Both the position numbers and the translations under genes were made by a program. A stretch of DNA of 64,000 nt from Tachypleus tridentatus (taxonomy: Eukaryota; Arthropoda; Merostomata; Xiphosura; Limulidae). Under the pieces are notes generated by a model. The model did no database searches. It saw nothing but the letters and a program-made list of their open reading frames with translations, and was not told where the DNA came from. Numbering within the stretch: position 1 is the stretch's first letter; every line of letters starts with the position of its first letter. The stretch is taken from positions 101,293,285 through 101,357,284 of the forward strand of contig NC_134827.1 in NCBI RefSeq assembly GCF_004210375.1, in the 5' to 3' direction. Below are positions 107-54,431 of this stretch, piece by piece.

Positions 107-167
107 TTAACTTTGAAGTTCATCCAATTTTTCATCTTCGATATCAAGTTCTGCATAGTACTTCTCA
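107..167 (-). CDS. Exon 5: C-terminal tail and stop
   Basis: The acceptor (TCTTTATTTCCAG) is followed by T, which completes Cys291, then 19 codons starting EKYYAELDIE and TAA at 107-109. The tail resembles the ...GCEDYY... acidic ending of CPAP3 proteins. This and the matching phase make a 61-nt exon convincing although it is too short to find by ORF length. Confidence 0.85.
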
Positions 168-3100: not shown

Positions 3101-6100
3101 TTGTTTAATTTGAAGCTATGTTAAAAAACGTTTGAAAGTTATAAAACCAATAGCATCATCGTTATCAGGTTGTGGAGAACATACCACATCACCATATGTT
3201 TTGAATTTCTCAGTCGTTCGCGTGAAAGTTTCAATTGTAGAATAAACCTAAGAATGGGTAAATTAGATTTTACTGCCATCTAGTGCATAGTAGAAGAGTT
3301 AATAAATTGTGAAATATGAATACGTAATAAACAGTACAATTTTTTGTTAACCTCGTCCCTCCAGAGGCAATGGTATTGCGATCGGGTCCAGGTGTCCGTC
3401 TCTGTTTCCGCACCGTATCTCGAAAACTAACAGACACATGTACAGGATTTTTTTTTTTTCACACAAGATGAAAAGTTACTATGTCTTCAATTGGCCTGGA
3501 TCCGAAGATGTTGGATCACTTTAAAGCATTATTATTATATGGGGAGATAGGGCATTTTTGCTGCTTGGGGTTAATACCTCTCTGAAGTGTAACTGGATTT
3601 GTATCATATTTCACGTGCACGTTAAGGCTGACGTTCTCCGTCACATCACAAAAAAAAAAAAAAAAAATCTGGATCGTTGACCATTCTGGATCTGAGAAGG
3701 ATTTTCTGAGGTTTTGAAGATGAAATTTGACCTTACCCAATATAAACACATGTAATCTGTAAAATGAGAGATGGGGACTACGTAGCTCTGCAATCTCTGA
3801 TTTTGTTCTTGTTGGGTGAAAGAAATTTAAGATAAATTGTGTACACAAAATAGCAGGGAAATACTGGTTATAAAAATACCTTAACAAATACACGCAAAAA
3901 TGTTTTTTTCACAATTGGAATTTTTTTTATCTTGAGCTATTTTTTATCTATCAGTTATTGGTATTAACACTGTAAAAAAAGTAATTTTGAAACAAATTAA
4001 ACAGTAAGTAATGACTCACCATCCTATCACGTTTTCTGGTTTATCACATTGTAAGGTGCCTGCATTGAACACCGTTCCAATTTCGCATCCATAAGGTCGT
4101 GCAATACCGTCAATACAGATAAAGAAACTCCTGCAGTTTGTAGGATGAGCGTGGCGCGTGAATACTCCTGGCTGACTGGACACCTCCGCCGGATCAGGAC
4201 AAACAAAACCTTCCGCCACTTCTGTTTAAAGAGTAAACCACTGTTATTATGCACATATCTTACAAAACGAAGTTTTAGAGAAGCTACGGTTGAAATGGAA
4301 CAATTTTCCAGTTTTCTTGTAAGAACACTAAATGGAAAAGAAACATGAAAAGCTCCAACTTCCATCAGCAGCAAGAGACAGCAAGTCAGATATGTGGGCC
4401 CGAACCATAGAGTGCAACTGTATACGTGTTCCAATGACGGACGAAACTATATATATCCAGCGCGATTTTGTGGTTTTGTCTATCAGGTTGTGGCTCAGTT
4501 TCTATTATTATTTAAAAAAAAAAAAAAGTTATTTCGCATATAAATTCAGAGTATGCGTTAAAAGAGTAACAGACAAATCCCACTATTCCGTCTGTTAAGA
4601 GTTTGCAACTGATTATGTTGACTAGTTGCCTTCCTTTTAGTCTTTCACTTCAAACTTAAATATTACTAGCGCATAAAGCTTTTTTATGCCTTTTCGCGAA
4701 AATCAACAAAGCAAACAAACCTATCTTATCAATTGTACCAAGCACATGACACCACCTCAGCCTGCCCACCAGTGGCTCAGCGGTATGTCTGCGGACTTAC
4801 AACGCTAAAAACCGGGTTTCGATACCTGTTGTGAGCAGAGCACAGATAGCCCATTGTGTAGCTTTGTGCTTAATTCAAAACAACAACAACCACCACCTCA
4901 GCCTCTTGGGAAATCCTACGTAATTTTTTATCACGGGCCACACGAGGTCAATTGGCGCTGTTGGTTCGAACCTTTATACAGACGTCAGATTTTTTTTTAA
5001 AGTTCACTTATCATATGAAAGACAGTATTTTGGAAAACAGTTTGGTTTGTAGATAATACAACGCGTTATTTCTAAAAGTAGTTTTTTATATGATACAACT
5101 CTGTATTTCAGAAAGTTGTTTCTTTAGATAATACAACGTTTTCTTTTAGAGAGTAGCTCTTCTTCTGTCTGATAGAACATATGCCTCCCAGTGGCACAGC
5201 AGCATGTCTGCGGACTCACAATGCTAACAACCGAGTTTCGATACCCGTGGTGGATAAAGCACAGACAGGCCATCCTGTAGCCATGTGCTTAATTATAAAC
5301 AGACAAATTGATATAACATTGCATTATTAGCATAAGAATACCACTAAGACTGAAATTAACAACTGAGGAGGCAATGAGGATTTTCGAGGAGACCTGATCC
5401 ACCACTTTCCCGCTTCAAACGGCGCCTTGTGAAGCTTAGATTTTGTTTTCATAAAAAGTTAAGCGAAGAGACTGACTCTAAAACAGGTAAATCACAAAAT
5501 GCGTTATGACATACAAATTCATCACACTTGTGAAGTGGTGAGTTAATTAGCTATTCAACTCAGTTGATAAAGCAGTTGTCTGCCGGGTAGGAGGTCTGTG
5601 GTTCAATCCTGTTGGTGAGAGACGACAAAAAATAGCAAAACAGAATCACTACATTACTAATCTCTATGTGAGGTTGCGTTCCTGTGACATAATACCTATC
5701 ACAGACATTGCCTTAATCTCTTAGCACGTGGTATTTCTAACCAAAAGGCTTGGGTGTAAATGTCAACGTCGTATTTCTCAATTTAATTTAATTTTTATTA
5801 AAGGTCACCAAAAAGTTACATCGTGCATGAATAGAAATACCTACAGAACTTCTACTGTAAAGTATTAATTGATGTCGATTTTAAAAACAATGACAATAAA
5901 AAACAAGATGTCCTACCTAGCTGATTGCAACGACTTACGAGATCAGCCCACACACACACCCTCTGTTCAATGTCGTAAGCCAGACCTGGTGGACACTCGA
6001 ATCTAGAAGCTTCTCCATTCCAACAGGAATAAAATACTCGGCAGTTGGAGGAATCATCAAATAAGCCATACAGTCGTGGACAGTTAGGGGTGCTAATTGG

Positions 6101-9100
6101 TGGTTCTAGAAGACAAGAACAGGAACGTTTGAAAACATTCACTAGAGCACATAGTGCAGTTAATTCATCAAGTATGAGAGGCGAGCGTTTACTGACTGGT
6201 CTGCGACAGCGTAAAGTGAGGACCATTAAAGATAAATGGCTGAAAATTCCTGAACATTGAACTAAAATACTTATTTGAAACTTCATCGAGATATCGTTTC
6301 AACCTTAAAGGTGTCCCCCAGTAGTTTATCGGTAAGCTTTTGGGATTAAAACATTATAGCTCGGATTTCAATACCCATGGTGTAGCTTTGTGCTTAACCT
6401 GAGACAAACCTTTAAAGGTAGTGGCCCGGTATGAATATAAAGTTTAATTTCATTACAATAGCAGATCGTATGGTTGGCATTTTTCGTTGGATCTAAAAGT
6501 TATTGGGAGTTCATCTAAGATGGCCAGGTGGTTCATACACTTGACTCGCAATCTGAGAATCGCGAGTTCGAATCCTCGTCATACCAAACATGCTCGCTCT
6601 TTCACCCGTGGGGACGTTATAATGTTATGGTCAATGAGTAAAAGAGTTGGTAAAAGAATAGCCCAAAGGTTGGCGGTGGGTGGTGATGACTAGCTGCTTT
6701 CCCTCTAGTCTTACACTTATAAATTAGATATGGCTAGCGCAGATAGTTCTCGTGGAGCTTTGCTTCTGTCTTCTCCATAGTTCTTGGGAATACATATAAG
6801 ATGGGTTGATCTTATCTTTCTCACCTAATTCTACACTCTCCACAGTTCTTAGGAATACATATAAGATGGGTTGATCTTATCTTTCTTACCTAATTCTCTC
6901 CTCTCCATAGTTCTTGGGAATACATATAAGATGGGTTGATCTTATCTTTCTCACCTAATTCTATCCTCTCCACAGTTCTTAGGAATACATATAAGATGGT
7001 TTGATCTTATCTTTCTTACCTAATTCTCTCCTCTCCATAGTTCTTGGGAATACATATAAGATGGGTTGATCTTATCTTTCTTACCTAATTATGTCCTCTC
7101 CACAGTTCTTGGGAATACATATAAGATGGATTGATCTTATCTTTCTCACCTAATTCTCTCCTCTCCACAGTTCTTGGGAATACATATAAGATGGTTTGAT
7201 CTTATCTTTCTTACCTAATTCTCTCTTCTCCATAGTTCTTGGGAATACATACAAGATGGTTTGATCTTATCTTTCTTACCTTATTCTGTCCTTTCCACAG
7301 TTCTTGGGAATAAATATAAGATGGTTTGATCTTATATTTCTTACCTAATTCTATCCTCTCCACAGTTCTTGGGAATACATATAAGATGAGTTGATCTTAT
7401 CTTTCTTACCTAATTCTCTCTTCTCCACAGTTCTTGGGAATACATACAAGATGGTTTGATCTTATCTTTCTTACCTTATTCTGTCCTTTCCACAGTTCTT
7501 GGGAATAAATATAAGATGGGTTGATCTTATCTTTCTTACCTAATTCTATCCTCTCCACAGTTCTTGGGAATACATATAAGATGGTTTGATCTTATATTTC
7601 TTACCTAATTCTCTCCTCTCCACAGTTCTTGGGAATACATATAAGATGGTTTGATCTTATATTTCTTACCTAATTCTCTCCTCTCCACAGTTCTTAGGAA
7701 TACATATAAGATGGGTTGATCTTATCTTTCTTACCTAATTCTATCCTCTCCACAGTTCTTGGGAATACATATAAGATGGTTTGATCTTATATTTCTTACC
7801 TAATTCTCTCCTCTCCACAGTTCTTGGGAATACATATAAGATGGTTTGATCTTATCTTTCTCACCTAATTATGTCCTCTCCACAGTTCTTAGGAATACAT
7901 ATAAGATGGGTTGATCTTATCTTTCTTACCTAATTCTCTCCTCTCCATAGTTCTTGGGAATACATATAAGATGGGTTGATCTTATATTTCTTACCTAATT
8001 ATGTTCTCTCCACAGTTCTTGGGAATACATATAAGATGGGTTGATCTTATCTTTCTCACCTAATTCTATCCTCTCCACAGTTCTTGGGAATACATATAAG
8101 ATGGGTTGATCTTATATTTCTTACCTAATTCTCTCTTCTCCATAGTTCTTGGGAATACATATAAGATGGGTTGATCTTATCTTTCTTACCTAATTATGTC
8201 CTCTCCACAGTTCTTGGGAATACATATAAGATGGATTGATCTTATCTTTCTCACCTAATTCTCTCCTCTCCACAGTTCTTGGGAATACATATAAGATGGT
8301 TTGATCTTATCTTTCTTACCTAATTCTCTCTTCTCCATAGTTCTTGGGAATACATACAAGATGGTTTGATCTTATCTTTCTTACCTTATTCTGTCCTTTC
8401 CACAGTTCTTGGGAATAAATATAAGATGGTTTGATCTTATATTTCTTACCTAATTCTATCCTCTCCACAGTTCTTGGGAATACATATAAGATGAGTTGAT
8501 CTTATCTTTCTTACCTAATTCTCTCTTCTCCACAGTTCTTCGGAATACATACAAGATGGTTTGATCTTATCTTTCTTACCTTATTCTGTCCTTTCCACAG
8601 TTCTTGGGAATACATATAAGATGGGTTGATCTTATCTTTCTCACCTAATTCTCTCCTCTCCACAGTTCTTGGGAATACATATAAGATGGGTTGATCTTAT
8701 CTTTCTTACCTAATTCTATCCTCTCCACAGTTCTTGGGAATACATATAAGATGGGTTGATCTTATCTTTCTTACCTAATTCTCTCCTCTCCACAGTTCTT
8801 GGGAATACATATAAGATGGGTTGATCTTATCTTTCTTACCTAATTCTCTCCTCTCCACAGTTCTTGGGAATACATATAAGATGGGTTGATCTTATCTTTC
8901 TTACCTAATTCTCTCCTCTCCACAGTTCTTGGGAATACATATAAGATGGGTTGATCTTATCTTTCTTACCTAATTCTCTCCTCTCCACAGTTCTTGGGAA
9001 TACATATAAGATGGGTTGATCTTATCTTTCTTACCTAATTCTCTCCTCTCCACAGTTCTTGGGAATACATATAAGATGGGTTGATCTTATCTTTCTTACC

Positions 9101-12100
9101 TAATTCTATCCTCTCCACAGTTCTTGGTAATACATATAAGATGGGTTGATCATATCTTTCTCACCTAATTCTATCCTCTCCATAGTTCTTGGGAATACAT
9201 ACAAGATGGGTTGATCTTATCTTTCTCACCTAATTATGTCCTCTCCACAGTTCTTGGGAATACATATAAGATGGTTTGATCTTATCTTTCTTACCTAATT
9301 CTCTCCTCTCCATAGTTCTTGGGAATACATATAAGATGGGTTGATCTTATCTTTCTTACCTAATTCTCTCCTCTCCATAGTTCTTGGGAATACATATAAG
9401 ATGGGTTGATCTTATCTTTCTCACCTAATTATGTCCTCTCCACAGTTCTTGGGAATACATATAAGATGGTTTGATCTTATCTTTCTTACCTAATTCTCTC
9501 CTCTCCACAGTTCTTGGGAATACATATAAGATGGGTTGATCTTATCTTTCTCACCTAATTCTGTCCTCTCCACAGTTCTTGGGAATACATATAAGATGGG
9601 TTGATCTTATCTTTCTTACCTAATTCTATCCTCTCCACAGTTCTTGGGAATACATATAAGATGGGTTGATCTTATCTTTCTTACCTAATTCTCTCCTCTC
9701 CATAGTTCTTGGGAATACATATAAGATGGGTTGATCTTATCTTTCTCACCTAATTCTGTCCTCTCCACAGTTCTTGGGAATACATATAAGATGGGTTGAT
9801 CTTATCTTTCTTACCTAATTCTCTCCTCTCCACAGTTCTTGGGAATACATATAAGATGGGTTGATCTTATCTTTCTCACCTAATTCTCTCCTCTCCACAG
9901 TTCTTGGGAATACATATAAGATGGGTTGATCTTATCTTTCTTACCTAATTCTATCCTCTCCACAGTTCTTGGGAATACATATAAGATGGGTTGATCTTAT
10001 CTTTCTTACCTAATTCTCTCCTCTCCACAGTTCTTGGGAATACATATAAGATGGGTTGATCTTATCTTTCTTACCTAATTCTCTCCTCTCCACAGTTCTT
10101 GGGAATACATATAAGATGGGTTGATCTTATCTTTCTTACCTAATTCTCTCCTCTCCACAGTTCTTGGGAATACATATAAGATGGGTTGATCTTATCTTTC
10201 TTACCTAATTCTATCCTCTCCACAGTTCTTGGGAATACATATAAGATGGGTTGATCTTATCTTTCTTACCTAATTCTCTCCTCTCCACAGTTCTTGGGAA
10301 TACATATAAGATGGGTTGATCTTATCTTTCTTACCTAATTCTATCCTCTCCACAGTTCTTGGGAATACATATAAGATGGGTTGATCTTATCTTTCTCACC
10401 TAATTCTCTCCTCTCCATAGTTCTTGGGAATACATATAAGATGGGTTGATCTTATCTTTCTTACCTAATTCTGTCCTCTCCACAGTTCTTGGGAATACAT
10501 ATAAGATGGGTTGATCTTATCTTTCTTACCTAATTCTCTCCTCTCCATAGTTCTTGGGAATACATATAAGATGGGTTGATCTTATCTTTCTTACCTAATT
10601 CTCTCCTCTCCATAGTTCTTGGGAATACATATAAGATGGGTTGATCTTATCTTTCTCACCTAATTCTGTCCTCTCCACAGTTCTTGGGAATACATATAAG
10701 ATGGTTTGATCTTATCTTTCTTACCTAATTCTCTCCTCTCCACAGTTCTTGGGAATACATATAAGATGGGTTGATCTTATCTTTCTTACCTAATTCTGTC
10801 CTCTCCACAGTTCTTGGGAATACATATAAGATGGGTTGATCTTATCTTTCTTACCTAATTCTATCCTCTCCACAGTTCTTGGGAATACATATAAGATGGG
10901 TTGATCTTATCTTTCTTACCTAATTCTCTCCTCTCCATAGTTCTTGGGAATACATATAAGATGGGTTGATCTTATCTTTCTCACCTAATTCTCTCCTCTC
11001 CACAGTTCTTGGGAATACATATAAGATGGGTTGATCTTATCTTTCTTACCTAATTCTCTCCTCTCCACAGTTCTTGGGAATACATATAAGATGGGTTGAT
11101 CTTATCTTTCTTACCTAATTCTATCCTCTCCACAGTTCTTGGGAATACATATAAGATGGGTTGATCTTATCTTTCTTACCTAATTCTCTCCTCTCCACAG
11201 TTCTTGGGAATACATATAAGATGGGTTGATCTTATCTTTCTCACCTAATTCTGTCCTCTCCACAGTTCTTGGGAATACATATAAGATGGTTTGATCTTAT
11301 CTTTCTTACCTAATTCTCTCCTCTCCACAGTTCTTGGGAATACATATAAGATGGGTTGATCTTATCTTTCTCACCTAATTCTCTCCTCTCCACAGTTCTT
11401 GGGAATACATATAAGATGGGTTGATCTTATCTTTCTTACCTAATTCTCTCCTCTCCACAGTTCTTGGGAATACATATAAGATGGGTTGATCTTATCTTTC
11501 TTACCTAATTCTCTCCTCTCCACAGTTCTTGGGAATACATATAAGATGGGTTGATCTTATCTTTCTCACCTAATTCTGTCCTCTCCACAGTTCTTGGGAA
11601 TACATATAAGATGGGTTGATCTTATCTTTCTCACCTAATTCTCTCCTCTCCACAGTTCTTGGGAATACATATAAGATGGGTTGATCTTATCTTTCTTACC
11701 TAATTCTCTCCTCTCCACAGTTCTTGGGAATACATATAAGATGGGTTGATCTTATCTTTCTTACCTAATTCTATCCTCTCCACAGTTCTTGGGAATACAT
11801 ATAAGATGGGTTGATCTTATCTTTCTTACCTAATTCTCTCCTCTCCACAGTTCTTGGGAATACATATAAGATGGGTTGATCTTATCTTTCTTACCTAATT
11901 CTGTCCTCTCCACAGTTCTTGGGAATACATATAAGATGGGTTGATCTTATCTTTCTCACCTAATTCTCTCCTCTCCACAGTTCTTGGGAATACATATAAG
12001 ATGGGTTGATCTTATCTTTCTTACCTAATTCTCTCCTCTCCATAGTTCTTGGGAATACATATAAGATGGGTTGATCTTATCTTTCTTACCTAATTCTCTC

Positions 12101-15100
12101 CTCTCCACAGTTCTTGGGAATACATATAAGATGGGTTGATCTTATCTTTCTCACCTAATTCTGTCCTCTCCACAGTTCTTGGGAATACATATAAGATGGG
12201 TTGATCTTATCTTTCTTACCTAATTCTCTCTCTCTCCACAGTTCTTGGGAATACATATAAGATGGGTTGATCTTATATTTCTTACCTAATTCTCTCCTCT
12301 CCACAGTTCTTGGGAATACATATAAGATGGGTTGATCTTATCTTTCTCACCTAATTCTATCCTCTCCACAGTTCTTGGGAATACATATAAGATGGGTTGA
12401 TCTTATCTTTCTTACCTAATTCTCTCCTCTCCACAGTTCTTGGGAATACATATAAGATGGGTTGATCTTATCTTTCTTACCTAATTCTCTCCTCTCCACA
12501 GTTCTTGGGAATACATATAAGATGGGTTGATCTTATCTTTCTCACCTAATTCTATCCTCTCCACAGTTCTTGGGAATACATATAAGATGGGTTGATCTTA
12601 TCTTTCTCACCTAATTCTATCCTCTCCACAGTTCTTAGGAATACATATAAGATGGGTTGATCTTATCTTTCTTACCTAATTCTATCCTCTCCACAGTTCT
12701 TGGGAATACATATAAGATGGGTTGATCTTATCTTTCTTACCTAATTCTATCCTCTCCACAGTTCTTGGGAATACATATAAGATGGGTTGATCTTATCTTT
12801 CTCACCTAATTCTCTCCTCTCCACAGTTCTTGGGAATACATATAAGATGGTTTGATCTTATCTTTCTCACCTAATTCTGTCCTCTCCATAGTTCTTGGGA
12901 ATACATATAAGATGGTTTGATCTTATCTTTCTTACCTAATTCTCTCCTCTCCACAGTTCTTGGGAATACATATAAGATGGGTTGATCTTATCTTTCTTAC
13001 CTAATTCTCTCCTCTCCACAGTTCTTGGGAATACATATAAGATGGGTTGATCTTATCTTTCTTACCTAATTCTGTCCTCTCCACAGTTCTTGGGAATACA
13101 TATAAGATGGGTTGATCTTATCTTTCTTACCTAATTCTCTCCTCTCCATAGTTCTTGGGAATACATATAAGATGGGTTGATCTTATCTTTCTTACCTAAT
13201 TCTCTCCTCTCCATAGTTCTTGGGAATACATATAAGATGGGTTGATCTTATCTTTCTTACCTAATTCTCTCCTCTCCATAGTTCTTGGGAATACATATAA
13301 GATGGGTTGATCTTATCTTTCTTACCTAATTCTGTCCTCTCCACAGTTCTTGGGAATACATATAAGATGGGTTGATCTTATCTTTCTTACCTAATTCTGT
13401 CCTCTCCACAGTTCTTGGGAATACATATAAGATGGGTTGATCTTATCTTTCTTACCTAATTCTCTCCTCTCCATAGTTCTTGGGAATACATATAAGATGG
13501 GTTGATCTTATCTTTCTTACCTAATTCTCTCCTCTCCATAGTTCTTGGGAATACATATAAGATGGGTTGATCTTATCTTTCTTACCTAATTCTCTCCTCT
13601 CCATAGTTCTTGGGAATACATATAAGATGGGTTGATCTTATCTTTCTTACCTAATTCTCTCCTCTCCATAGTTCTTGGGAATACATATAAGATGGGTTGA
13701 TCTTATCTTTCTTACCTAATTCTCTCCTCTCCACAGTTCTTGGGAATACATATAAGATGGGTTGATCTTATCTTTCTTACCTAATTCTATCCTCTCCACA
13801 GTTCTTGGGAATACATATAAGATGGTTTGATCTTATCTTTCTCACCTAATTCTATCCTCTCCATAGTTCTTGGGAATACATATAAGATGGGTTGATCTTA
13901 TCTTTCTTACCTAATTCTCTCCTCTCCATAGTTCTTGGGAATACATATAAGATGGGTTGATCTTATATTTCTTACCTAATTCTATCCTCTCCACAGTTCT
14001 TAGGAATACATATAAGATGGGTTGATCTTATCTTTCTTACCAATTCTATCCTCTCCACAGTTCTTGGGAATACATATAAGATGAGTTGATCATATCTTTC
14101 TTACCTAATTCTCTCCTCTCCATAGTTCTTGGGAATACATATAAGATGGGTTGATCTTATCTTTCTTACCTAATTCTCTCCTCTCCATAGTTCTTGGGAA
14201 TACATATAAGATGGGTTGATCTTATCTTTCTTACCTAATTCTCTCCTCTCCATAGTTCTTGGGAATACATATAAGATGGGTTGATCTTATCTTTCTTACC
14301 TAATTCTCTCCTCTCCATAGTTCTTGGGAATACATATAAGATGGGTTGATCTTATCTTTCTTACCTAATTCTCTCCTCTCCACAGTTCTTGGGAATACAT
14401 ATAAGATGGGTTGATCTTATCTTTCTTACCTAATTCTCTCCTCTCCATAGTTCTTGGGAATACATATAAGATGGGTTGATCTTATCTTTCTTACCTAATT
14501 CTCTCCTCTCCATAGTTCTTGGGAATACATATAAGATGGGTTGATCTTATCTTTCTTACCTAATTCTCTCCTCTCCATAGTTCTTGGGAATACATATAAG
14601 ATGGGTTGATCTTATCTTTCTTACCTAATTCTCTCCTCTCCATAGTTCTTGGGAATACATATAAGATGGGTTGATCTTATCTTTCTTACCTAATATGTCC
14701 TCTCCACAGTTCTTGGGAATACATATAAGATGGGTTGATCTTATCTTTCTTACCTAATTCTCTCCTCTCCATAGTTCTTGGGAATACATATAAGATGGGT
14801 TGATCTTATCTTTCTTACCTAATTATGTCCTCTCCACAGTTCTTGGGAATACATATAAGATGGGTTGATCTTATCTTTCTTACCTAATTCTCTCCTCTCC
14901 ATAGTTCTTGGGAATACATATAAGATGGGTTGATCTTATCTTTCTTACCTAATTCTCTCCTCTCCATAGTTCTTGGGAATACATATAAGATGGGTTGATC
15001 TTATCTTTCTTACCTAATTCTCTCCTCTCCATAGTTCTTGGGAATACATATAAGATGGGTTGATCTTATCTTTCTTACCTAATTCTCTCCTCTCCATAGT

Positions 15101-18100
15101 TCTTGGGAATACATATAAGATGGGTTGATCTTATCTTTCTTACCTAATTCTCTCCTCTCCATAGTTCTTGGGAATACATATAAGATGGGTTGATCTTATC
15201 TTTCTCACCTAATTCTATCCTCTCCACAGTTCTTAGGAATACATATAAGATGGGTTGATCTTATCTTTCTCACCTAATTCTATCCTCTCCACAGTTCTTG
15301 GGAATACATATAAGATGGGTTGATCTTATCTTTCTTACCTAATTCTCTCCTCTCCATAGTTCTTGGGAATAAATATAAGATGGTTTGATCTTATCTTTCT
15401 TACCAATTCTATCCTCTCCACAGTTCTTGGGAATACATATAAGATGGGTTGATCTTATCTTTCTTACCAATTCTATCCTCTCCACAGTTCTTGGGAATAC
15501 ATATAAGATGGGTTGATCTTATCTTTCTTACCAATTCTATCCTCTCCATAGTTCTTGGGAATACATATAAGATGGGTTGATCTTATCTTTCTTACCTAAT
15601 TCTCTCCTCTCCACAGTTCTTAGGAATACATATAAGATGGGTTGATCTTATCTTTCTTACCTAATTCTTTCCTCTCCATAGTTCTTGGGAATACATATAA
15701 GATGGGTTGATCTTATCTTTCTTACCTAATTCTTTCCTCTCCACAGTTCTTGGGAATACATATAAGATGGGTTGATCTTATCTTTCTTACCTAATTCTTT
15801 CCTCTCCATAGTTCTTGGGAATACATATAAGATGGGTTGATCTTATCTTTCTTACCTAATTCTTTCCTCTCCACAGTTCTTGGGAATACATATAAGATGG
15901 GTTGATCTTATCTTTCTTACCTAATTCTTTCCTCTCCACAGTTCTTGGGAATACATATAAGATGGGTTGATCTTATCTTTCTTACCTAATTCTTTCCTCT
16001 CCACAGTTCTTGGGAATACATATAAGATGGGTTGATCTTATCTTTCTCACCTAATTCTCTCCTCTCCACAGTTCTTGGGAATACATATAAGATGGGTTGA
16101 TCTTATCTTTCTTACCTAATTCTATCCTCTCCACAGTTCTTGGGAATACATATAAGATGGGTTGATCTTATCTTTCTTACCTAATTCTATCCTCTCCACA
16201 GTTCTTGGGAATACATATAAGATGGGTTGATCTTATCTTTCTTACCTAATTCTCTCCTCTCCATAGTTCTTGGGAATAAATATAAGATGGTTTGATCTTA
16301 TCTTTCTTACCAATTCTATCCTCTCCACAGTTCTTGGGAATAAATATAAGATGGTTTGATCTTATCTTTCTTACCAATTCTATCCTCTCCACAGTTCTTG
16401 GGAATAAATATAAGATGGTTTGATCTTATCTTTCTTACCAATTCTATCCTCTCCACAGTTCTTAGGAATACATATAAGATGGGTTGATCTTATCTTTCTT
16501 ACCAATTCTATCCTCTCCATAGTTCTTGGGAATACATATAAGATGGGTTGATCTTATCTTTCTTACCTAATTCTCTCCTCTCCATAGTTCTTGGGAATAC
16601 ATATAAGATGGGTTGATCTTATCTTTCTTACCTAATTCTCTCCTCTCCACAGTTCTTAGGAATACATATAAGATGGGTTGATCTTATCTTTCTTACCTAA
16701 TTCTCTCCTCTCCATAGTTCTTGGGAATACATGTAAGATGGGTTGATCTTATCTTTCTCACTTAATTCTATCCTCTCCACAGTTCTTAGGAATACATATA
16801 AGATGGGTTGATCTTATCTTTCTCACCTAATTCTCTCCTCTCCATAGTTCTTGGGAATACATATAAGATGGGTTGATCTTATCTTTCTTACCTAATTCTA
16901 CACTCTCCACAGTTCTTGGGAATACATATAAGATGGGTTGATCTTATCTTTCTTACCTAATTCTATCCTCTCCACAGTTCTTGGGAATACATATAAGATG
17001 GGTTGATCTTATCTTTCTTACCTAATTCTCTCCTCTCCATAGTTCTTGGGAATACATATAAGATGGGTTGATCTTATCTTTCTTACCTAATTCTCTCTTC
17101 TCCATAGTTCTTGGGAATACATATAAGATGGTTTGATCTTATCTTTCTTACCTAATTCTCTCTTCTCCATAGTTCTTGGGAATACATATAAGATGGTTTG
17201 ATCTTATCTTTCTTACCTAATTCTCTCTTCTCCATAGTTCTAGGGAATACATATAAGATGGGTTGATCTTATCTTTCTTACCTAATTCTCTCCTCTCCAC
17301 AGTTCTTAGGAATACATATAAGATGGGTTGATCTTATCTTTCTCACCTAATTCTATCCTCTCCACAGTTCTTGGGAATACATATAAGATGGGTTGATCAT
17401 ATCTTTCTCACCTAATTCTATCCTCTCCACAGTTCTTAGGAATACATATAAGATGGGTTGATCTTATCTTTCTCACCTAATTCTATCCTCTCCACAGTTC
17501 TTGGGAATACATATAAGATGGGTTGATCATATCTTTCTCATCTAATTCTATCCTCTCCACAGTTCTTAGGAATACATATAAGATGGGTTGATCTTATCTT
17601 TCTCACCTAATTCTCTCCTCTCCACAGTTCTTGGGAATACATATAAGATGGTTTGATCTTATCTTTCTCACCTAATTCTGTCCTCTCCATAGTTCTTGGG
17701 AATACATATAAGATGGTTTGATCTTATCTTTCTTACCTAATTCTCTCCTCTCCACAGTTCTTGGGAATACATATAAGATGGGTTGATCTTATCTTTCTTA
17801 CCTAATTCTCTCCTCTCCACAGTTCTTGGAAATACATATAAGATGGGTTGATCTTATCTTTCTCACCTAATTCTGTCCTCTCCACAGTTCTTGGGAATAC
17901 ATATAAGATGGGTTGATCTTATCTTTCTTACCTAATTCTCTCCTCTCCATAGTTCTTGGGAATACATATAAGATGGTTTGATCTTATCTTTCTTACCTAA
18001 TTCTCTCCTCTCCATAGTTCTTGGGAATACATATAAGATGGGTTGATCTTATATTTCTCACCTAATTCTCTCCTCTCCATAGTTCTTGGGAATACATATA

Positions 18101-21100
18101 AGATGGGTTGATCTTATCTTTCTTACCTAATTCTATCCTCTCCACAGTTCTTGGGAATACATATAAGATGAGTTGATCATATCTTTCTTACCTAATTATG
18201 TCCTCTCCACAGTTCTTGGGAATACATATAAGATGGGTTGATCTTATCTTTCTTACCTAATTCTCTCCTCTCCATAGTTCTTGGGAATACATATAAGATG
18301 GGTTGATCTTATCTTTCTTACCTAATTATGTCCTCTCCACAGTTCTTGGGAATACATATAAGATGGGTTGATCTTATCTTTCTTACCTAATTCTCTCCTC
18401 TCCATAGTTCTTGGGAATACATATAAGATGGGTTGATCTTATCTTTCTTACCTAATTATGTCCTCTCCACAGTTCTTGGGAATACATATAAGATGGGTTG
18501 ATCTTATCTTTCTTACCTAATTCTCTCCTCTCCATAGTTCTTGGGAATACATATAAGATGGGTTGATCTTATCTTTCTTACCTAATTCTCTCCTCTCCAT
18601 AGTTCTTGGGAATACATATAAGATGGGTTGATCTTATCTTTCTTACCTAATTCTCTCCTCTCCATAGTTCTTGGGAATACATATAAGATGGGTTGATCTT
18701 ATCTTTCTTACCTAATTCTCTCTCTCCATAGTTCTTGGGAATACATATAAGATGGGTTGATCTTATCTTTCTTACCTAATTCTCTCCTCTCCATAGTTCT
18801 TGGGAATACATATAAGATGGGTTGATCTTATCTTTCTCACCTAATTCTATCCTCTCCACAGTTCTTAGGAATACATATAAGATGGGTTGATCATATCTTT
18901 CTCACCTAATTCTATCCTCTCCACAGTTCTTGAGAATACATATAAGATGAGTTGATCATATCTTTCTTACCTAATTCTCTCCTCTCCATAGTTCTTGGGA
19001 ATAAATATAAGATGGTTTGATCTTATCTTTCTTACCAATTCTATCCTCTCCACAGTTCTTGGGAATACATATAAGATGGGTTGATCTTATCTTTCTTACC
19101 TAATTCTCTCCTCTCCACAGTTCTTGGGAATACATATAAGATGGGTTGATCTTATCTTTCTTACCAATTCTATCCTCTCCATAGTTCTTGGGAATACATA
19201 TAAGATGGTTTGATCTTATCTTTCTTACCAATTCTATCCTCTCCACAGTTCTTGGGAATAAATATAAGATGGTTTGATCTTATCTTTCTTACCAATTCTA
19301 TCCTCTCCACAGTTCTTAGGAATACATATAAGATGGGTTGATCTTATCTTTCTTACCAATTCTCTCCTCTCCATAGTTCTTGGGAATACATATAAGATGG
19401 GTTGATCTTATCTTTCTTACCTAATTCTCTCCTCTCCATAGTTCTTGGGAATACATATAAGATGGGTTGATCTTATCTTTCTTACCTAATTCTCTCCTCT
19501 CCATAGTTCTTGGGAATACATGTAAGATGGGTTGATCTTATCTTTCTCACTTAATACTATCCTCTCCACAGTTCTTAGGAATACATATAAGATGGGTTGA
19601 TCTTATCTTTCTCACCTAATTCTCTCCTCTCCATAGTTCTTGGGAATACATATAAGATGGGTTGATCTTATCTTTCTTACCTAATTCTACACTCTCCACA
19701 GTTCTTGGGAATACATATAAGATGGGTTGATCTTATCTTTCTTACCTAATTCTATCCTCTCCACAGTTCTTGGGAATACATATAAGATGGGTTGATCTTA
19801 TCTTTCTTACCTAATTCTCTCCTCTCCATAGTTCTTGGGAATAAATATAAGATGGGTTGATCTTATCTTTCTTACCTAATTATGTCCTCTCCACAGTTCT
19901 TGGGAATACATATAAGATGGTTTGATCTTATCTTTCTTACCTAATTCTCTCCTCTCCATAGTTTTTGGGAATACATATAAGATGGGTTGATCTTATCTTT
20001 CTTACCTAATTCTGTCCTCTCCACAGTTCTTGGGAATACATATAAAATGGTTTGATCTTATCTTTCTTACCTAATTCTCTCCTCTCCCCACAGTCTACAC
20101 TGAAGGGGTAAGCACAGTTTTCTTGTAGTTTGTCAGAATCATCGAATACCAATCCATTTCCACACAGTTTCAGCGTAGATGTACCATTTTCACAAGCCCA
20201 GTATCGGTCACAGCTTCTACTGTGGGGGAAAAATCCAAAAGGCTCAGGACAGTTGAACACTTCGTTTGTTTCAATAATTGCTGGGGCACGATTTCTCTGA
20301 CGATTAGGCCTCCGGGCGGGTTGAGAAGGCGAGAGAGCAGGTTGTGTCGGTCGAGAAGCTGGTGGTGGCTGGTATCGTGGTGGAGATTGTTCGGGAGCCT
20401 TAGGTGGCTGCGAGTTGACTGCTTGTCGGTTCGGCAGCTTGTCATCCTCATAGTCGTAATATTCATAATATTCATTGTCATTCTGAGAATCTGTTCTTAC
20501 CTGGGCGTAAACTAGAAATGAAAACATAAATTAATCTGTGCTGGTGAAACAGAAGATATTGTTACAATTATACTTGTCATAAGAGATTAGTATTAGACCT
20601 ATAATATTTTTAAACGTAACACTCTTTACTCAGTCCCGTAGAAATGTTGAAAAATTAAAATAGTGTATGATAACTGTATTCCAACTCTACTATATTCATC
20701 TTATCTATTGCCGACGACGCGTTTCGCTCAATCCAGAGCTCATCGAGTTGGCTGGAAAACAACAAACACAGTTGTGATCGACACGATATTTATATAAACC
20801 ATTTGTTACAACAAAAGTTGTTTATACCAGAACGTATCGTTAACTCTCTTCTCGTGATTTGCACAGTGAACGTTTGGTTTGAAGGAAAAACAAAACAACA
20901 AGGGTCAGTACCCTCCAAACTAGTAAAAAGATCGACTTTTCATGGAGGATTTAGACAATCTCTCTTTCATTATTTCAGAAGTACAATATATGTATGCATT
21001 TAGTTCCGAAGTAAACGAGTGTGTAGTGTGTGTTTTTCTTATAGCAAAGCCACATAGAGCTATCTGATCTGTCCACCGAGGCGAATCGAACCCCTGATTT

Positions 21101-24100: not shown

Positions 24101-26505
24101 TGATATTCAGTAACACAGCTGATATAAGAACCTTGTCTAAAGTATCTTCAACTAAGGCCCGGTATGGCCAGGTGGTTAAGGCACTCGCCTCGTAATCTGA
24201 GGGTCGCGAGTTCGAATCCCCGTCCTACCAAAGATACTCGCCCTTTCAGCTGTGAGGGCGATATAATGTGACGATAAATACCACTATTCGTTCGTAAAAG
24301 AGTAGGCCAAGAGTGGGTGGTGATGTCTAGCTGCCTTCCCTCTAGTCTTACACTGCTAAGTTAGGGACGGCTAGTGCAGACAGCCCTCATGTAGCTTTGC
24401 GCAAAATTCAAAAACAAACAAATCTTCAACTAACTGACCTAAGAATCTTGTTTAAAGTATCTTCAACCAACAGATCCTAGAACATCGTCTAAAGTATGTT
24501 AAACTAAATGATTGTATACTCAATAATTTACAAAACATTGTAGAAGGTACTAGGTTTAAAAACATTGAATGGCGTGGTTAACGATATAACCAGGATATGT
24601 CCATTTGTTTATCGCTAAACAGAAAGCTAAGCAATATGATATGTATGCTCCGATCGATTCTTGAATTTCAGCGTTACAAACCCTCAGTTTTCTACTGACC
24701 CACAGGGGAGGTGGACGTATAACCATTTCCTTGTACACAGTAACAGAAATCCTTTTGCCTCTAAGAACGTAGTTCTTCAGTGATCTCCCTGAAGAAGCTC
24801 AGCTAAAATGCAATAACCGGTCCGATGACCTACATATAATAACCTTAATCAGGACTAGGAAATGATGTTAACTGCTGCATTCTGGGCCAGCTCAGGGCTC
24901 GAGGAAATGAACAGTTTCCAGGTTAGGATATGCTAATTATAAGATCAGGTCATATAGTTGAAAAATATATATGTAAAAACGATTCATTTGGGTTGAGAAA
25001 TGTTTTTACGTCTACGTAAAATAAAAAATTCTCAACCCAAACGAACCGTTTTTACATATATATTTTTCTCTACAAGTGGGTTTTCTCGACATCAGTGATT
25101 ATTAGGTCATATAGTTGGTTTGGCATATATTCTATTACCTGTAATAGAGGTCTTTCACTCTCCGTTCCAACAGAGGTGGAATTATTTAGTTTATGTGTCG
25201 TTTATATGTCACTTTAAATTTAAATGTCAGACCGCTAAAGAACATCGAATTCATTTCTATTCTATATTATAGATCTATCTGGCATATTTTTTAAAGCTTA
25301 AGCATATTTTATCTGAACAATATAATTATAAACACGTCAGGAGAAGCGCGCGCACACACATACACATTTATATACATGTGTGGGTCTGAAAATTAATTTT
25401 AATCGAGTATATAATAAATATACATATTTTTCCCCTGTTAACTGAGCGATAAGTTTCAGGGTTTAATTCGTCAATATTCGAACTTTAATCCCTCTAGTGG
25501 GCAAATGCACAGAATAGCTCAGTGTGTAGCTTTATGTTGATTCTTAGTGTCAACAGCGGAAGTAAAATAAATCATATTCCAGTTTGTTAGATTTTATCTT
25601 TGTAACCTTTCAAACAGGTCAACAAGGTTGCGGGTACGAATCCCTGTTTCACCAAACGTGTTCGCCCTTTCAGCCATGGGGACGTTGCAAAGTACCGGCC
25701 GATCCCACTATTCGTTGTTAAAAGAGTAGCCCAATTGCTGGCGGTGGGTGGTGATGACTAGCTGCCTTCCCTCTCGTCTTACACTACTAAATTATGGACG
25801 ACTAGCTCAGATAGCACTCGTGTAGCATTGCTCGAAATTCAAAACTAACTAACTGGTCAACATGATTTTGAACGTCAGGATTAGCATAGATGTAAAGTCA
25901 GTTCCTTCTTGTTTATTTCGATTTTAATTCCAACTACGTTTATCAATTGGCATTTATATTTAAGAGGACTAATGTATTAAAGTGTTACATTCAAAACAAT
26001 AATCTTATATATTAATATTGCAAATAGTAGGTGTTTTATAAAACGACTAGCGCTGATTTGTTACCAGAATATTCTTAATTAACTATTAGATTTCATATGA
26101 AGTGGAGCGGTAAGGCAGCGACACCTACATCAATAACATCACTGTGAACTATATTGGTAAAACGACGTTTAACAAAGCGAGAAATATACCGATAACATTT
26201 ATACATAAAATATATACTATTAAATTTTGACAAAAGAAACAATTACTTAGGAAATAGGTTTATTATTATAATTCTTTCCCTAGGAAATGTGACAAGATAT
26301 TTATAATAAAATATGTTCATTACGGTTAGGTCCGAATTAAATATAAAATATTTTATACGTTATTTAAACGTGTTTTAAACTCAATTTAAAATTAATGCAC
26401 CAATAAAATTTCACTTATAATGTTTATGTAATTTTAGCATAAATAAAAGAAAGTATTTCTCTCACCAGCACCAACAAGAAAAACACAAATCAGCCAACTT
26501 TGCAT
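107..26505 (-). CDS. CPAP3/obstructor-type cuticular chitin-binding protein, five exons (whole gene)
   Basis: Five minus-strand exons (26466-26505, 20071-20511, 5917-6105, 4020-4221, 107-167) join with GT-AG introns and matching phases (1,1,1,2) into a 933-nt CDS, 310 residues plus stop. Residues 1-16 (MQSWLICVFLVGAVYA) form a signal peptide with cleavage likely before Gln17. Residues 27-37 are Tyr/Asp/Glu-rich and about 47-84 are Pro-rich. Three ChtBD2 (peritrophin-A) domains follow, with cysteines at 101/114/120/130/146/154, 169/182/188/198/211/220 and 231/253/259/269/282/291, each with a CX5C core. Residues 292-310 are a short acidic tail starting EKYY. Three such domains plus this kind of C-terminus are typical of the CPAP3 (obstructor/Gasp) family, secreted proteins that bind chitin and organise cuticle or tracheal matrix. 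An N-glycosylation sequon (N122-G-T) lies in domain 1. The N-terminal extension is longer than in compact family members. I do not assign a specific paralogue. The splice model is read by eye and has no transcript support here. Confidence 0.88.
541..893 (+). mobile_element. Long tRNA-derived SINE, subfamily A
   Basis: It has a tRNA-like head with box B GGTTCGCATCC, then GCGCCAAACATGCTCGCC, a conserved central region, and tail GTATCTTTGTGCGAAATT plus poly(A). About 70 bases between 645 and 720 partly duplicate the CTCGCCCTT...GTGGGG segment, so this copy is rearranged. Confidence 0.85.
1915..1987 (+). mobile_element. Short SINE remnant
   Basis: It keeps the head (CCCAAGTGGCATAGTGCGGA, CAACGCTAGAAA) and the tail (CATTGTGTAGCTTTGGGCTTAA); the middle with box B is deleted. 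Confidence 0.6.
2535..2807 (+). mobile_element. Long tRNA-derived SINE, subfamily B
   Basis: Full-length head GCCCGGCACAGTCAGGTGG, box B GGCTCGAATCC, central domain and tail GTAGCTTTGCGCGAAATTC followed by an A-rich end. Confidence 0.88.
3340..3740. repeat. Probable dispersed repeat, unclassified
   Basis: It has CCTCGTCCCTCCAGAGG, T- and A-homopolymer runs and repeated GGATC-containing motifs. The composition differs from its surroundings and resembles a decayed DNA-transposon remnant, but I cannot define ends. Confidence 0.3.
4020..4221 (-). CDS. Exon 4: third ChtBD2 domain
   Basis: The acceptor TTTAAACAG precedes AAGTGG, and the donor is GGATG|GTGAGTC. The exon encodes residues 224-291 (ends shared) with cysteine spacing 21-5-9-12-8. 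The longer first loop and the CDKPENVIGC ending match the third domain of CPAP3 proteins. The final cysteine codon TG|T is completed by exon 5. Confidence 0.9.
4764..4890 (+). mobile_element. Short SINE, full length, with target-site duplication
   Basis: Head GCCCACCAGTGGCTCAGCGG, box-B-like GGTTTCGATACC, tail GTGTAGCTTTGTGCTTAATT plus CAA repeats. A perfect 14-bp duplication CACCACCTCAGCCT flanks it (4750-4763 and 4891-4904), so this is a fairly recent insertion. Confidence 0.85.
5183..5309 (+). mobile_element. Short SINE
   Basis: Head GCCTCCCAGTGGCACAGCAG, GAGTTTCGATACCCG and tail CTGTAGCCATGTGCTTAATT. Near-identical GATAGAACAT and GATATAACAT flank it. Confidence 0.75.
5555..5622 (+). other. 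tRNA-like sequence
   Basis: CTCAGTTGATAAAGCAG resembles a D-arm/box A, and GTGGTTCAATCC resembles a T-arm/box B with plausible spacing. I cannot fold a convincing acceptor stem, so it is more likely a SINE head or tRNA pseudogene than a working tRNA. Confidence 0.35.
5917..6105 (-). CDS. Exon 3: second ChtBD2 domain
   Basis: The acceptor is preceded by a pyrimidine tract (CCTGTTCTTGTCTTCTAG) and the donor is CTAG|GTAGGA. The exon encodes residues 161 (shared) to 224 (shared), cysteine spacing 12-5-9-12-8. It is 189 nt with phase 1 at both ends, so it is one self-contained domain module that could be skipped without a frameshift. Confidence 0.9.
6314..6405 (+). mobile_element. Short SINE, degenerate
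   Basis: CCCCAGTAGTTTATCGGTAA, GATTTCAATACCC and GTGTAGCTTTGTGCTTAA remain. Similar ACCTTAAAGGT and ACCTTTAAAGGT lie on the two sides. Confidence 0.6.
6519..6765 (+). mobile_element. Long SINE, tail truncated by the 65-bp array
   Basis: It has a subfamily-B-like head, box B AGTTCGAATCC and central domain, then the tail stops at GTGGAGCTTTGC, where the satellite begins. The usual CGAAATTC and A-rich end are missing. Confidence 0.85.
6766..20090 (-). repeat. 65-bp splice-donor satellite, ~205 copies
   Basis: The array is nearly continuous with period 65 (some units 64 or 63 through loss of CT in CCTAATT, a few with a 1-2 base change). On the gene's strand each unit reads: purine-rich TGTGGAGAGGAGAGAATTAG, then GTAAGAAAG or GTGAGAAAG, then an ATAAGAT/ATCTTAT hairpin, then ATGTATTCCCAAGAA. 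The unit matches the exon 2/intron 2 boundary except that the genuine exon has two extra G. Common variants are Ctctcc/Ctatcc/Ctgtcc/Atgtcc in the exon-like part, TTACC/TCACC at the donor, and CACAG/CATAG. The terminal unit supplies the real donor at 20070/20071. I recognise no transposon protein or terminal repeats in it. Confidence 0.95.
20071..20511 (-). CDS. Exon 2: acidic and Pro-rich extension plus first ChtBD2 domain
   Basis: The acceptor (TTCATTTCTAG) precedes 20511, and the donor is TTAG|GTAAGAAAG at 20071/20070. The exon encodes residues 14-160 and the first base of Glu161: a Tyr/Asp stretch, a Pro/Arg/Gln-rich linker, and domain 1 with cysteine spacing 12-5-9-15-7. The last residues, DCGERREL, resemble the conserved domain-1/domain-2 linker of obstructor proteins, so this coding end is ancestral. 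The same ~20 bases and the donor recur throughout the adjacent 65-bp array. Confidence 0.9.
20709..20755 (-). repeat. Hammerhead-like dispersed repeat
   Basis: On the minus strand, CGATGA is followed by a GCTC/GAGC stem with a TGGATT loop, then GAAACGCGTC. This is the layout of a hammerhead core as found in Penelope-like retroelements, but CUGAUGA is here CTCGATGA, with one extra base. It is probably a decayed element end. Confidence 0.35.
21019..21113 (-). mobile_element. Short SINE-like element with target-site duplication
   Basis: Inverted tail TTATAGCAAAGCCACATAG and inverted box B GAATCGAACCCC are present. A perfect AAGTAAACGA duplication flanks it (21009-21018, 21114-21123). Confidence 0.7.
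21151..21390 (-). mobile_element. Long SINE, reverse orientation
   Basis: Inverted tail, central domain and box B (TTCGAACCCGCG) are recognisable. The head is diverged or lost after the box B region. Confidence 0.8.
21817..22079 (+). mobile_element. Long SINE, subfamily B
   Basis: GGGCCACGTGGGTTAAGGCG head, box B GGTTCGAATCC, CACCAAACATG and central domain; ends in an A-rich tract. Confidence 0.85.
23629..23745 (+). mobile_element. Short SINE
   Basis: CCAGCTGGTACAAAGGTAAG head, GGGTTCGATTCCCC box B and AGAGTAGCTTTGCTATAAG tail. A long SINE begins immediately downstream. Confidence 0.7.
23751..24032 (+). mobile_element. Long SINE, subfamily A, near-intact
   Basis: Head GCCCGGCATGGCCAAGCGCG, box B GGTTCGCATCC, GCGCCAAACATG, full central domain, tail and A-rich end. 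Confidence 0.92.
24128..24520 (+). repeat. Small degenerate repeat split by a SINE
   Basis: Variants of CTTGTCTAAAGTATCTTCAA occur before the SINE at 24157 and two or three times after it, with loose ~47-bp spacing. Confidence 0.5.
24157..24420 (+). mobile_element. Long SINE, subfamily B, with target-site duplication
   Basis: Head GCCCGGTATGGCCAGGTGG, box B AGTTCGAATCC, and tail GTAGCTTTGCGCAAAATTC with an A-rich end. ATCTTCAACTAA occurs on both sides. Confidence 0.92.
24961..25070. repeat. Inverted repeat, ~40-bp arms
   Basis: AAATATATATGTAAAAACG and GGGTTGAGAA are mirrored by TTCTCAACCC and CGTTTTTACATATATATTT around a ~25-bp centre that itself contains TTTACG/CGTAAA. The right flank (ACAAGTGGGTTTTCTC) recurs inverted near 46,525, which suggests a transposon terminus or a foldback element. 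Confidence 0.65.
25625..25854 (+). mobile_element. Long SINE, 5'-truncated, with target-site duplication
   Basis: It starts inside the tRNA head just before box B and continues to the normal tail. A perfect GGTCAACA duplication flanks it (25617-25624, 25855-25862), so the truncation happened at insertion, as in LINE-driven retrotransposition. Confidence 0.85.
26466..26505 (-). CDS. Exon 1: start codon and signal peptide
   Basis: ATG at 26503-26505 begins 13 hydrophobic codons (MQSWLICVFLVGA). The exon ends with a single G before the donor GTGAGAG. That G joins TT of exon 2 to make Val14, completing the VYA cleavage motif. A signal peptide on its own small exon with a phase-1 intron is common for secreted arthropod proteins. 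No other nearby ATG gives a signal peptide in phase with exon 2. Confidence 0.85.
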
Positions 26506-35759: not shown

Positions 35760-36092
35760 GAACATTATCTGTGAGCGTGTGGTAACATTCTGTGCAATGT
35801 GAACATTATCTGTGAGGGTGTGGTAACATTCTGTGCAATGGGAACATTATCTGTGAGCGTGTGGTAACATTCTGTGCAATGTGAACATTATCTGTGAGCG
35901 TGTGGTAACATTCTGTGCAATGTGAACATTATCTGTGAGCGTGTGGTAACATTCTGTGCAATGTGAACATTATCTGTGAGCGTGTGGTAACATTCTGTGT
36001 AATGTGAACATTATCTGTGAGCGTGTGGTAACATTCTGTGTAATGTGAACATTATCTGTGAGCGTGTGGTAACATTCTGTGTAATGTGAACA
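35760..36092. repeat. 41-bp tandem repeat, ~8 copies
   Basis: Unit with GAACATTATCTGTGAGCG, TGTGGTAACATTC and TGTGCAATGT. The final copies share TGTGTAATG. It passes directly into the 31-bp array. Confidence 0.93.
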
Positions 36093-39000: not shown

Positions 39001-39925
39001 CAACATCATCTCTTCTTGTCATACTTTACTCCAACATGGTCACTTGTTGTCATACATTACTCCAACATGGTCACTTCTTGTCATACTTTACTCCAACATG
39101 GTCACTTGTTGTCATACTTTACTCCAACATGGTCACTTGTTGTCATACTTTACTCCAACATGATCACTTGTTGTCATACTTTACTCCAACATGGTCACTT
39201 GTTGTCATACTTTACTCCAACATGGTCACTTGTTGTCATACTTTACTCCAACATGGTCACTCTTGTCATACTTTACTCCAACATGATCACTTCTTGTCAT
39301 ACTTTACTCCAACATGGTCACTTCTTGTCATACTTTACTCCAACATGGTCACTTCTTGTCATACTTTACTCCAACATGATCACTTGTTGTCATACTTTAC
39401 TCCAACATGGTCACTTCTTGTCATACTTTACTCCAACATCAGCTCTTCTTGTCATACTTTACTCCAACATGGTCACTTCTTGTCATACTTTACTCCAACA
39501 TGATCACTTGTTGTCATACTTTACTCGAACATGGTCACTTCTTGTCATACATTACTCCAACATGACCACTTGTTGTCATACTTTACTCCAACATGATCAC
39601 TTGTTGTCATAGTTTACTCCAACATCATCTCTTCTTGTCATACTTTACTCCAACATGGTCACTTCTTGTCATACATTACTCCAACATGATCACTTGTTGT
39701 CATACTTTACTCCAACATCATCTCTTCTTGTCTTATTTTACTCCAACATGGTCACTTTTTGTCATACTTTACTCCAACATGATCACTTGTTGTCTTATTT
39801 TACTCCAACATGATCACTTGTTGTCTTATTTTACTCCAACATGATCACTTGTTGTCTTATTTTACTCCAACATGATCACTTGTTGTCTTATTTTACTCCA
39901 ACATGTCACTTGTTGTCATAGTTAA
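36093..39925. repeat. 31-bp tandem array, ~123 copies
   Basis: Unit ATCACTTCTTGTCATACTTT plus ACTCCAACATG. Variants are GGTCAC for GATCAC, CTTGTTG for CTTCTTG, CTTATTTT for CATACTTT, and a CATCATCTCTTCTTG or CATCAGCTCTTCTTG form. Identical rare variants recur 465 bp (15 units) and 310 bp (10 units) apart, showing block duplication. Because 31 is not a multiple of 3, the period in codons is 93 bp and all three frames stay open for hundreds of codons; these are not genes. Confidence 0.95.
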
Positions 39926-40565
39926 CTGGAGCGTTTTTTTTAATGATCTTACAATTTGCACGGATTGCGGTCGCTAAAAATCGTTTGCCTGTCGAACCAT
40001 GGAAATTACAGTTTTATAAAAAGTAAAGATGTTAATGGAAGCAATGAGAAACTGCACGTTCTTCCCACGTGTAAACATTCGTCATCGCGACGATCGAACA
40101 ACAACAAGTCAGTAGTGCAGACACTGGTGTTTAATTAATCATTGAAGAATAAGGCAGAATTCAATAAATTGACGACACGAGTTTTTAACGAGTAAAATAA
40201 AACAAATCTAATTTATGTTTACAGTATTTAAAGACATGCCTGTTACATTGTCGTGGGAAGGTAGAACTAATTTATGAAAACAGCGTGTGAAAATGTGACC
40301 ACTTGGAATGATAGTTGTCTCGTATTCAATAAGAGAATGTCAGAAAGATAGTGGAAGGAAGTTAAATATTTCTTTCTAGTGTTTCAATAAGAAGTTATAC
40401 AATGGTCAAGAAATAAACAGAAGAGCAAAGTTAAAGATTGCTTGCTATAATCATCAGTATAGCTAATACTACCAAGTGGAATAGGTTGTTTGATTCACCA
40501 GAGAATGAGGGTCTTCTACACGAAGAATTTAACTAGTGAAATAAAAACATTCAAAACTTAAGAGA

Positions 40566-54320: not shown

Positions 54321-54431
54321 AAAATACAAGTTTAAATTTAAAGAACACTGAAATCATTTCTTCAAATGTTATAAAGTTGTTTAACTGACAATTTAAATAC
54401 AAACAATCTATGTAAGGCTTCTCATACATGA

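Follow-up and report, generated by a model that had tools for sequence, protein, structure and literature searches.

A 65-bp minisatellite spanning a splice junction fills intron 2 of an obstructor-E-like gene in the horseshoe crab Tachypleus tridentatus

Introduction

How is an intron correctly spliced when its donor is followed by about two hundred near-copies of itself? This question is raised by a 64,000-nt stretch of the Tachypleus tridentatus genome (assembly GCF_004210375.1, contig NC_134827.1, positions 101,293,285 to 101,357,284; hereafter the window, numbered from its first base), in which intron 2 of an obstructor-E-like gene on the minus strand consists almost entirely of tandem 65-bp units that repeat the end of exon 2 together with its splice donor. 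Choice among equally strong donors is commonly investigated with sites duplicated in the laboratory. At this locus, 111 and 205 mostly equal donors are present in two versions of one gene, and the read-out is unambiguous, namely a productive junction versus a stop codon; the locus would thus let position rules be measured directly. In addition, it shows that a genome can tolerate a minisatellite straddling a splice junction, and it may show a satellite that alters a conserved protein residue.

Results and discussion

Tandem Repeats Finder (TRF) recognised one single array at positions 6764..20087 (period 65, 205.2 copies, 96% matches), and a donor map and pattern counts on the minus strand gave 205 donors for it, the true one included. 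Array sequence accounts for 13,307 bp of the 13,965-bp intron 2 (95%), and the array extends 17 nt into exon 2, confirming the original prediction, which had described this intron as a tandem array of ~13 kb with a 65-bp unit. With its head-to-tail units of minisatellite size (65 bp x 205), it is a minisatellite, or variable number tandem repeat (VNTR). On the gene strand the consensus unit reads GTAAGAAAGATAAGATCAACCCATCTTATATGTATTCCCAAGAACTGTGGAGAGGAGAGAATTAG, to which the 65-mers of the window array are on average 97.4% identical. A 23-nt core pattern, allowing up to three mismatches, matched 205 times compared to zero matches in each of 100 shuffles. The donor positions run on the minus strand from 20070 down to 6824, and the 204 intervals between them measure 65 bp in 188 cases, 64 bp in 15, and 66 bp in one.

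Both GT and GTRAG were retained at 204 of the 205 window donors, the remaining one reading AT. The nine bases of the true donor, TAGGTAAGA, are found at 143/205 donors (the true one counted) and the variant TAGGTGAGA at 42/205. The true donor is predicted to pair with the U1 end at -9.4 kcal/mol, and 188 of the other 204 donors have predicted values of -9.4 or -9.5 kcal/mol. Because donor sequence and U1 pairing are nearly equal across the array, nothing within the donor itself marks the correct one. The earlier count of ~205 near-identical donors therefore holds for the positions, 143 of which share the same nine bases, while the decoys number 204, the 205th being the real donor. Most window units end in TTAG|GTAAG (TTAGGTAAGAAAG in 134/205), and in the unit consensus the donor is preceded by the purine-rich GAGAGGAGAGAA.

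The donor of the terminal unit had been proposed as that of exon 2, and a gene model using it agrees with this assignment. This first donor (donor 1), GTAAGA at 20065..20070, would join exon 2 (20071..20511, minus strand) to exon 3 (5917..6105, minus strand) across an intron of 13,965 bp in phase 1 (6106..20070, minus strand). Using the donor 20071|20070 and the acceptor 6106|6105, the model of five joined exons yields a coding sequence of 933 nt, whose translation is identical to the catalogued protein P0001.

What would follow from the use of any other donor is set by unit 1. An in-frame TAG lies 62 nt beyond donor 1, at the end of unit 1, in the window as well as in a second copy of the gene (described below), and every later donor takes in this codon, as checked for donors 2, 3, 10, and 100. 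The expectation that a later donor ruins the frame was therefore correct; moreover, such a donor would be non-productive even without a frame shift, because the in-frame TAG ends unit 1. Decay is expected for leaked transcripts, as the exon 3/4 and 4/5 junctions follow downstream, the first of them 189 nt on.

Taken together, we consider it probable that the array is a tolerated, hypervariable VNTR lying across a splice junction and that the exon-side donor is the one used, with leakage probably destroyed. Locally, most donors match the true one in strength, and the spliceosome would choose the first, exon-side donor by its position. This choice would rest on exon definition, through the exon 2 acceptor and exonic enhancers, and on the earliest synthesis of donor 1. 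Leakage to a later donor would append ~62 nt with the in-frame TAG, and nonsense-mediated decay would remove the product; the array itself would be tolerated rather than selected. In C. elegans unc-73(az100), in which a donor doublet is duplicated 18 nt downstream, the upstream doublet is used more (PMC8865678).

Several points weigh against this account. In human cells, SRSF1 binding directly upstream of two competing donors suppresses the exon-side donor; tethered between them, it favours the intron-side donor, although this second effect was not clearly corroborated by the paper's own global analysis (PMC5585400). Because the purine-rich GAGAGGAGAGAA precedes the donor in the unit consensus, the SRSF1 rule would predict trouble for exon-side choice, and position alone may not suffice to explain correct splicing. 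The results from C. elegans and for human SRSF1 are in conflict, a tension that makes this locus worth testing. Furthermore, the donor-1 model is built on the match to the catalogued protein P0001. Despite GTRAG at 204/205 window and 107/111 second-copy donors, the donor has no lower share of variable positions (6/9) than the rest of the unit (23/56), so neither selection on the donors nor its absence is shown. Minisatellites account for 38% of the window and for 21-42% of four stretches of 30-68 kb, the window among them, but for 14% and 0% of two 9.9-kb paralogue loci, indicating that minisatellite richness is uneven. Finally, a recent true duplication, rather than allelism, could account for the second copy.

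The AG|GT at the unit ends also allows a different way of removing the array, by recursive or ratchet splicing, in which donor 1 would be spliced to a unit end, the donor regenerated exactly, and the array removed stepwise. Indeed, the TTAG|GTAAG unit ends have the geometry of a zero-length exon that restores the correct donor, and ratchet splice sites likewise read AG|GT. However, acceptors and known ratchet sites need a pyrimidine tract, and the units have none before their AG: the bases at this place are purine-rich, reading GGAGAGGAGAGAATTAG in 101/204 window units and 55/110 units of the second copy, with 87 more of the 204 window units within one to three changes of it. We regard stepwise removal as very unlikely.

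The opposite strand of the array has features of its own. Read on the plus strand, the stretch 6764-20087 resembles a 3' splice site, with CTAAT, a pyrimidine tract, and CACAG (133/204 units) or CATAG (71/204 units), and an antisense transcript across the array would bear ~200 acceptors.

The host gene on the minus strand has five coding exons, and its four introns all start with GT and have acceptors ending in AG. In a protein search, exons 2-4 joined (a 276-aa query) matched the Tachypleus tridentatus "protein obstructor-E-like" P0001 with 100% identity over 100% of the query. The joined coding sequence that equals P0001 begins with coding exon 1 (26466..26505), which has a GT donor and encodes a signal peptide, MQSWLICVFLVGA, judged by eye. 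Exon 2, with AG and GT borders, encodes an acidic/proline-rich region and a first chitin-binding domain (CBM_14, Pfam E 1.4e-9), its final 17 nt lying inside the 65-bp array. The second CBM_14 domain is encoded by exon 3 (Pfam E 1.3e-13), a third, CBM_14-like domain by exon 4 (4020..4221; cysteine pattern and alignment), and CEKYYAELDIEDEKLDELQS followed by the stop codon by the last coding exon (107..167). Judged from its sequence, the product is a secreted cuticle protein with three CBM_14 domains, the third identified by its cysteine pattern and alignment and the signal peptide by eye.

To see where the array came from, its unit can be compared with the exon. The terminal portion of the unit, ACTGTGGAGAGGAGAGAATTAG, matches the exon end, ACTGTGGGGAGAGGAGAGAATTAG, except that two G are missing. 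The original prediction had each unit hold the last ~20 exon bases followed by GTAAG/GTGAG; exon end and donor are indeed present, while the exon-derived part measures ~22-23 nt and lacks these two G. The loss is common to all units of both copies: the GGGG of the exon is shortened by two G, position 51 being A in 298/298 65-mers, and the 16 units of other length read likewise by eye. The final 17 nt of exon 2 are reproduced in 101/204 window units and 55/110 second-copy units.

At all four paralogue loci inspected in the same genome (C10, C6, C4, and C2), the encoded linker is D/N-C-G-x-R, and a GT follows directly at the same codon position; 501 bases each were read for C4 and C2, and intron 2 was read for C10 and C6. 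In the closest paralogue, C10, exon 2 ends in GTAGACTGTGGGGATAGGGCAGAATTAG|GTGAGT and has GTAGACTGTGGGGA-AGG--AGAATTAG in common with the host gene. Intron 2 is 1,638 bp long in C10 and 2,207 bp in C6, both with a matching acceptor, and the unit core (up to five substitutions) had zero matches in either of these two introns; that of C10 contains an unrelated short repeat of ~100 bp. Since paralogues share the exon end while intron 2 of C10 and C6 lacks the array, comparison of these sequences identifies exon 2 as the source and the array as the derivative, as had been proposed. The founding event would have been a tandem duplication of a segment reaching from ~24 nt before the end of exon 2 to ~43 nt into intron 2; unequal exchange or replication slippage would then have enlarged it to a hypervariable minisatellite with a 65-bp unit.

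We gave next to no credence to a chance likeness between unit and exon, or to a dispersed satellite captured by the exon. The region is admittedly rich in minisatellites (38% of the window), but the match comprises 17 identical nt together with an in-register ACTGTGG, paralogues without an array have the exon sequence too, and genome searches with array sequence matched, at the sensitivity used, only a second copy of the locus on the same assembled sequence (C3). A separate idea, the gain of a new intron through duplication, was rejected, as the paralogues have the donor at the same codon position; the intron is old and only its filling is new.

Two genome searches, one with exon plus array and one with 401 bases of pure array, placed the array elsewhere only at C3:101529235-101536462. 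Common words were skipped in these searches and the best candidates scored (33 of 34 for exon plus array; 1 of 2 for pure array, the other presumably being the window itself). The remaining matches to exon plus array were paralogue exons (C10 and C6) and short matches to the first 49 bases of the query. The presence of the satellite at many unrelated loci, which had been named as the finding that would make its likeness to the exon coincidental, was thus not observed, and at the sensitivity of the searches used the array is locus-specific and not dispersed.

The second copy lies 223 kb from the window locus and is 98% similar to it. Its contig (C3:101525606-101593588; 67,983 bp) is flanked by two gaps of 500 N, and 93.5% of its length aligns collinearly with the window region at 93% identity or more, the main uncovered part being a tandem array of 3,678 bases at the contig end. 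Stretches of 40, 443, 191, and 201 nt covering exons 1-4 differ from the window at 0, 1, 0, and 1 positions, respectively. The exon 2 end is identical, the distal junction of the array with a short interspersed element (SINE) is the same, and 111 donors are present, with GT at 111/111 and GTRAG at 107/111. We infer that this is probably an unpurged alternative haplotype, that is, the other allele, a reading supported by the size of the assembly (2.167 Gb in 204 scaffolds), which exceeds the 1.72 and 1.94 Gb of the other two assemblies of the species (PMC7815833 Table 1).

The same features could point to misassembly as the origin of the copy number or of the second copy itself, as this copy is bounded by gaps and the assembly is larger than the two others. 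However, long arrays are held by two separate contigs, and of their 70 and 32 distinct unit types in the window and the second copy, respectively, only 12 are common to both. With so few shared unit types on separate contigs, the arrays look real, although their exact numbers may be off, and we consider an assembly artefact very unlikely. Several other chitin-binding gene matches also came as equally scoring pairs located on a single contig, so that this assembly may overstate gene numbers.

Copy number varies between the two copies not only for the 65-bp array, with 205 donors in the window and 111 in the inferred other allele. From 3135 on, the window has seven minisatellites with at least five copies, this array included, and all of them differ in this respect: the 45-bp repeat has 6.7 copies in the window and 8.5 in the second copy, the 41-bp repeat 8 and 17, the 30-bp repeat 22 and 12, the 51-bp repeat 22 and 6, the 31-bp repeat (36089-39927) 124 and ~8, and the 63-bp repeat (49801-54322) 72 and ~24. 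Because the six others differ as well, the 65-bp array behaves like an ordinary hypervariable minisatellite. Unit order was not shared between the copies above the level of shuffles for words of two to five units (25 vs 22.3 for two units, 6 vs 4.7 for three, and 0 vs 0.94 for four). Within the window copy, in contrast to the shuffles, repeated unit words exceeded all 500 of them, the pattern given by local block duplication. Unshared unit order and differing copy number fit an unconstrained VNTR.

These comparisons bear on whether the array serves the gene. The original prediction had considered a U1 sink or a regulatory device, and a bank of sites for the U1 small nuclear ribonucleoprotein could regulate the gene as a poison splice reservoir, by protection from premature polyadenylation, or by copy-number tuning of the splicing rate. 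Such a role would be in line with GT kept at 204/205 and 111/111 donors, with U1 pairing at -9.4 or -9.5 kcal/mol at 189/205 (the true one included) and 106/111 donors, with the stop codon reached from later donors, and with the absence of AATAAA on the gene strand of every 65-bp unit in either copy (298 units; the 16 of other length stood outside this test). On the other hand, two near-identical copies have donor numbers almost twofold apart, the six other minisatellites compared differ in copy number as well, unit order is unshared, the paralogues C10 and C6 manage with introns of 1.6 and 2.2 kb without an array, and a young homogenised array retains its founder's motif without selection. 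A functional array is therefore unlikely, and the proposed sink or device finds no support in the comparison of 205 with 111 donors.

As the last 17 nt of exon 2 form part of the array, a kind of "unit zero", the array might also rewrite the exon. We tentatively put forward, as plausible without being our preferred view, that array and exon 2 exchange sequence and that the majority variant was copied back into the exon, changing a conserved Thr to Arg. Out of 120 homologues (the best of 244), 68 were readable by the linker pattern and were counted. The residue after the conserved linker Arg is Thr in 39/68 and Ser in 17/68 (together 56/68); Arg occurs only in P0001 and in none of the other 67. 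Its codon in P0001 is AGA, where Thr would be ACA, and the second base of this codon is C in the paralogues C10, C6, and C2 and T in C4. At the corresponding unit position 57, the 298 65-bp units of both copies have G in 169, T in 70, C in 47, and A in 12 cases. Units of the C class are the most varied in background (mean pairwise difference 2.42 vs 1.55 for G; as large in 1/400 permutations), as would be expected from a founding C, with G appearing later and then being copied to the exon. The length of such copy-back would be limited by the two bases missing from the units, because a longer one would shift the reading frame.

Other observations speak against copy-back. In the window copy, T-class units are almost as varied as those of the C class (2.26 vs 2.42), the units are not independent, and four states at one site suggest recurrent mutation. 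It is also possible that the exon mutated first and the array back-mutated later. If copy-back were true, the locus would present a selfish satellite editing a protein, and with ~200 equal donors a natural test of splice-site choice.

How does this locus relate to described systems? In human IFI6 (6-16, G1P3), a minisatellite was reportedly found to give multiple splice donor sites by Turri, Cuin, and Porter in 1995 (NAR 23:1854). Common to both systems are tandem units that supply several competing donors, here with a consensus donor in the repeats and an array abutting the exon end (204/205 GT; 17-nt overlap). The IFI6 unit is 12 bp long, and its array of ~26 units is in frame; in contrast, the horseshoe-crab unit measures 65 bp, its 111 and 205 donors extend over 7-13 kb, and its downstream donors would give no productive isoform, because each copy has the TAG 62 nt beyond donor 1. 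An intronic VNTR in ABCA7 is said to alter splicing; it resembles the present array as a length-variable tandem repeat within a gene's intron, whereas the horseshoe-crab units differ in each carrying the intron's own donor and the exon end. Intron gain through tandem genomic duplication has reportedly been observed too, and shares with this locus a duplicated segment and an AG|GT at each unit boundary; the horseshoe-crab intron, in contrast, is old, and only its filling is new. Donor-bearing minisatellites are thus already known from IFI6, for which a minisatellite supplying several splice donors is reported (PMC4526556 and PMC2572611), and what is new here is the scale and the non-productive reading of every decoy. 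The assertion that no case had been described at this scale accordingly stands for the scale but not for the kind. Beyond IFI6, no comparable case was among the literature matches listed, a search that left most subscription papers outside and gives no proof of absence.

The distal edge of the array is abutted by a tRNA-like SINE of an abundant family (6520..6763, plus strand), to which 24 further places in the window are 76-86% identical; 19 of these matches end within three bases of the array edge. This family is very dense in the region. Rfam models at gathering thresholds gave no match anywhere in the window. ARAGORN called a tRNA-Cys (anticodon aca) at 23625-23700 on the plus strand, which may be SINE-derived because a SINE copy lies close by, at 23781-23999. 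Open frames at 42868-43840 on the minus strand resemble, by impression, pieces of a DNA transposon of the CENP-B/Tigger type.

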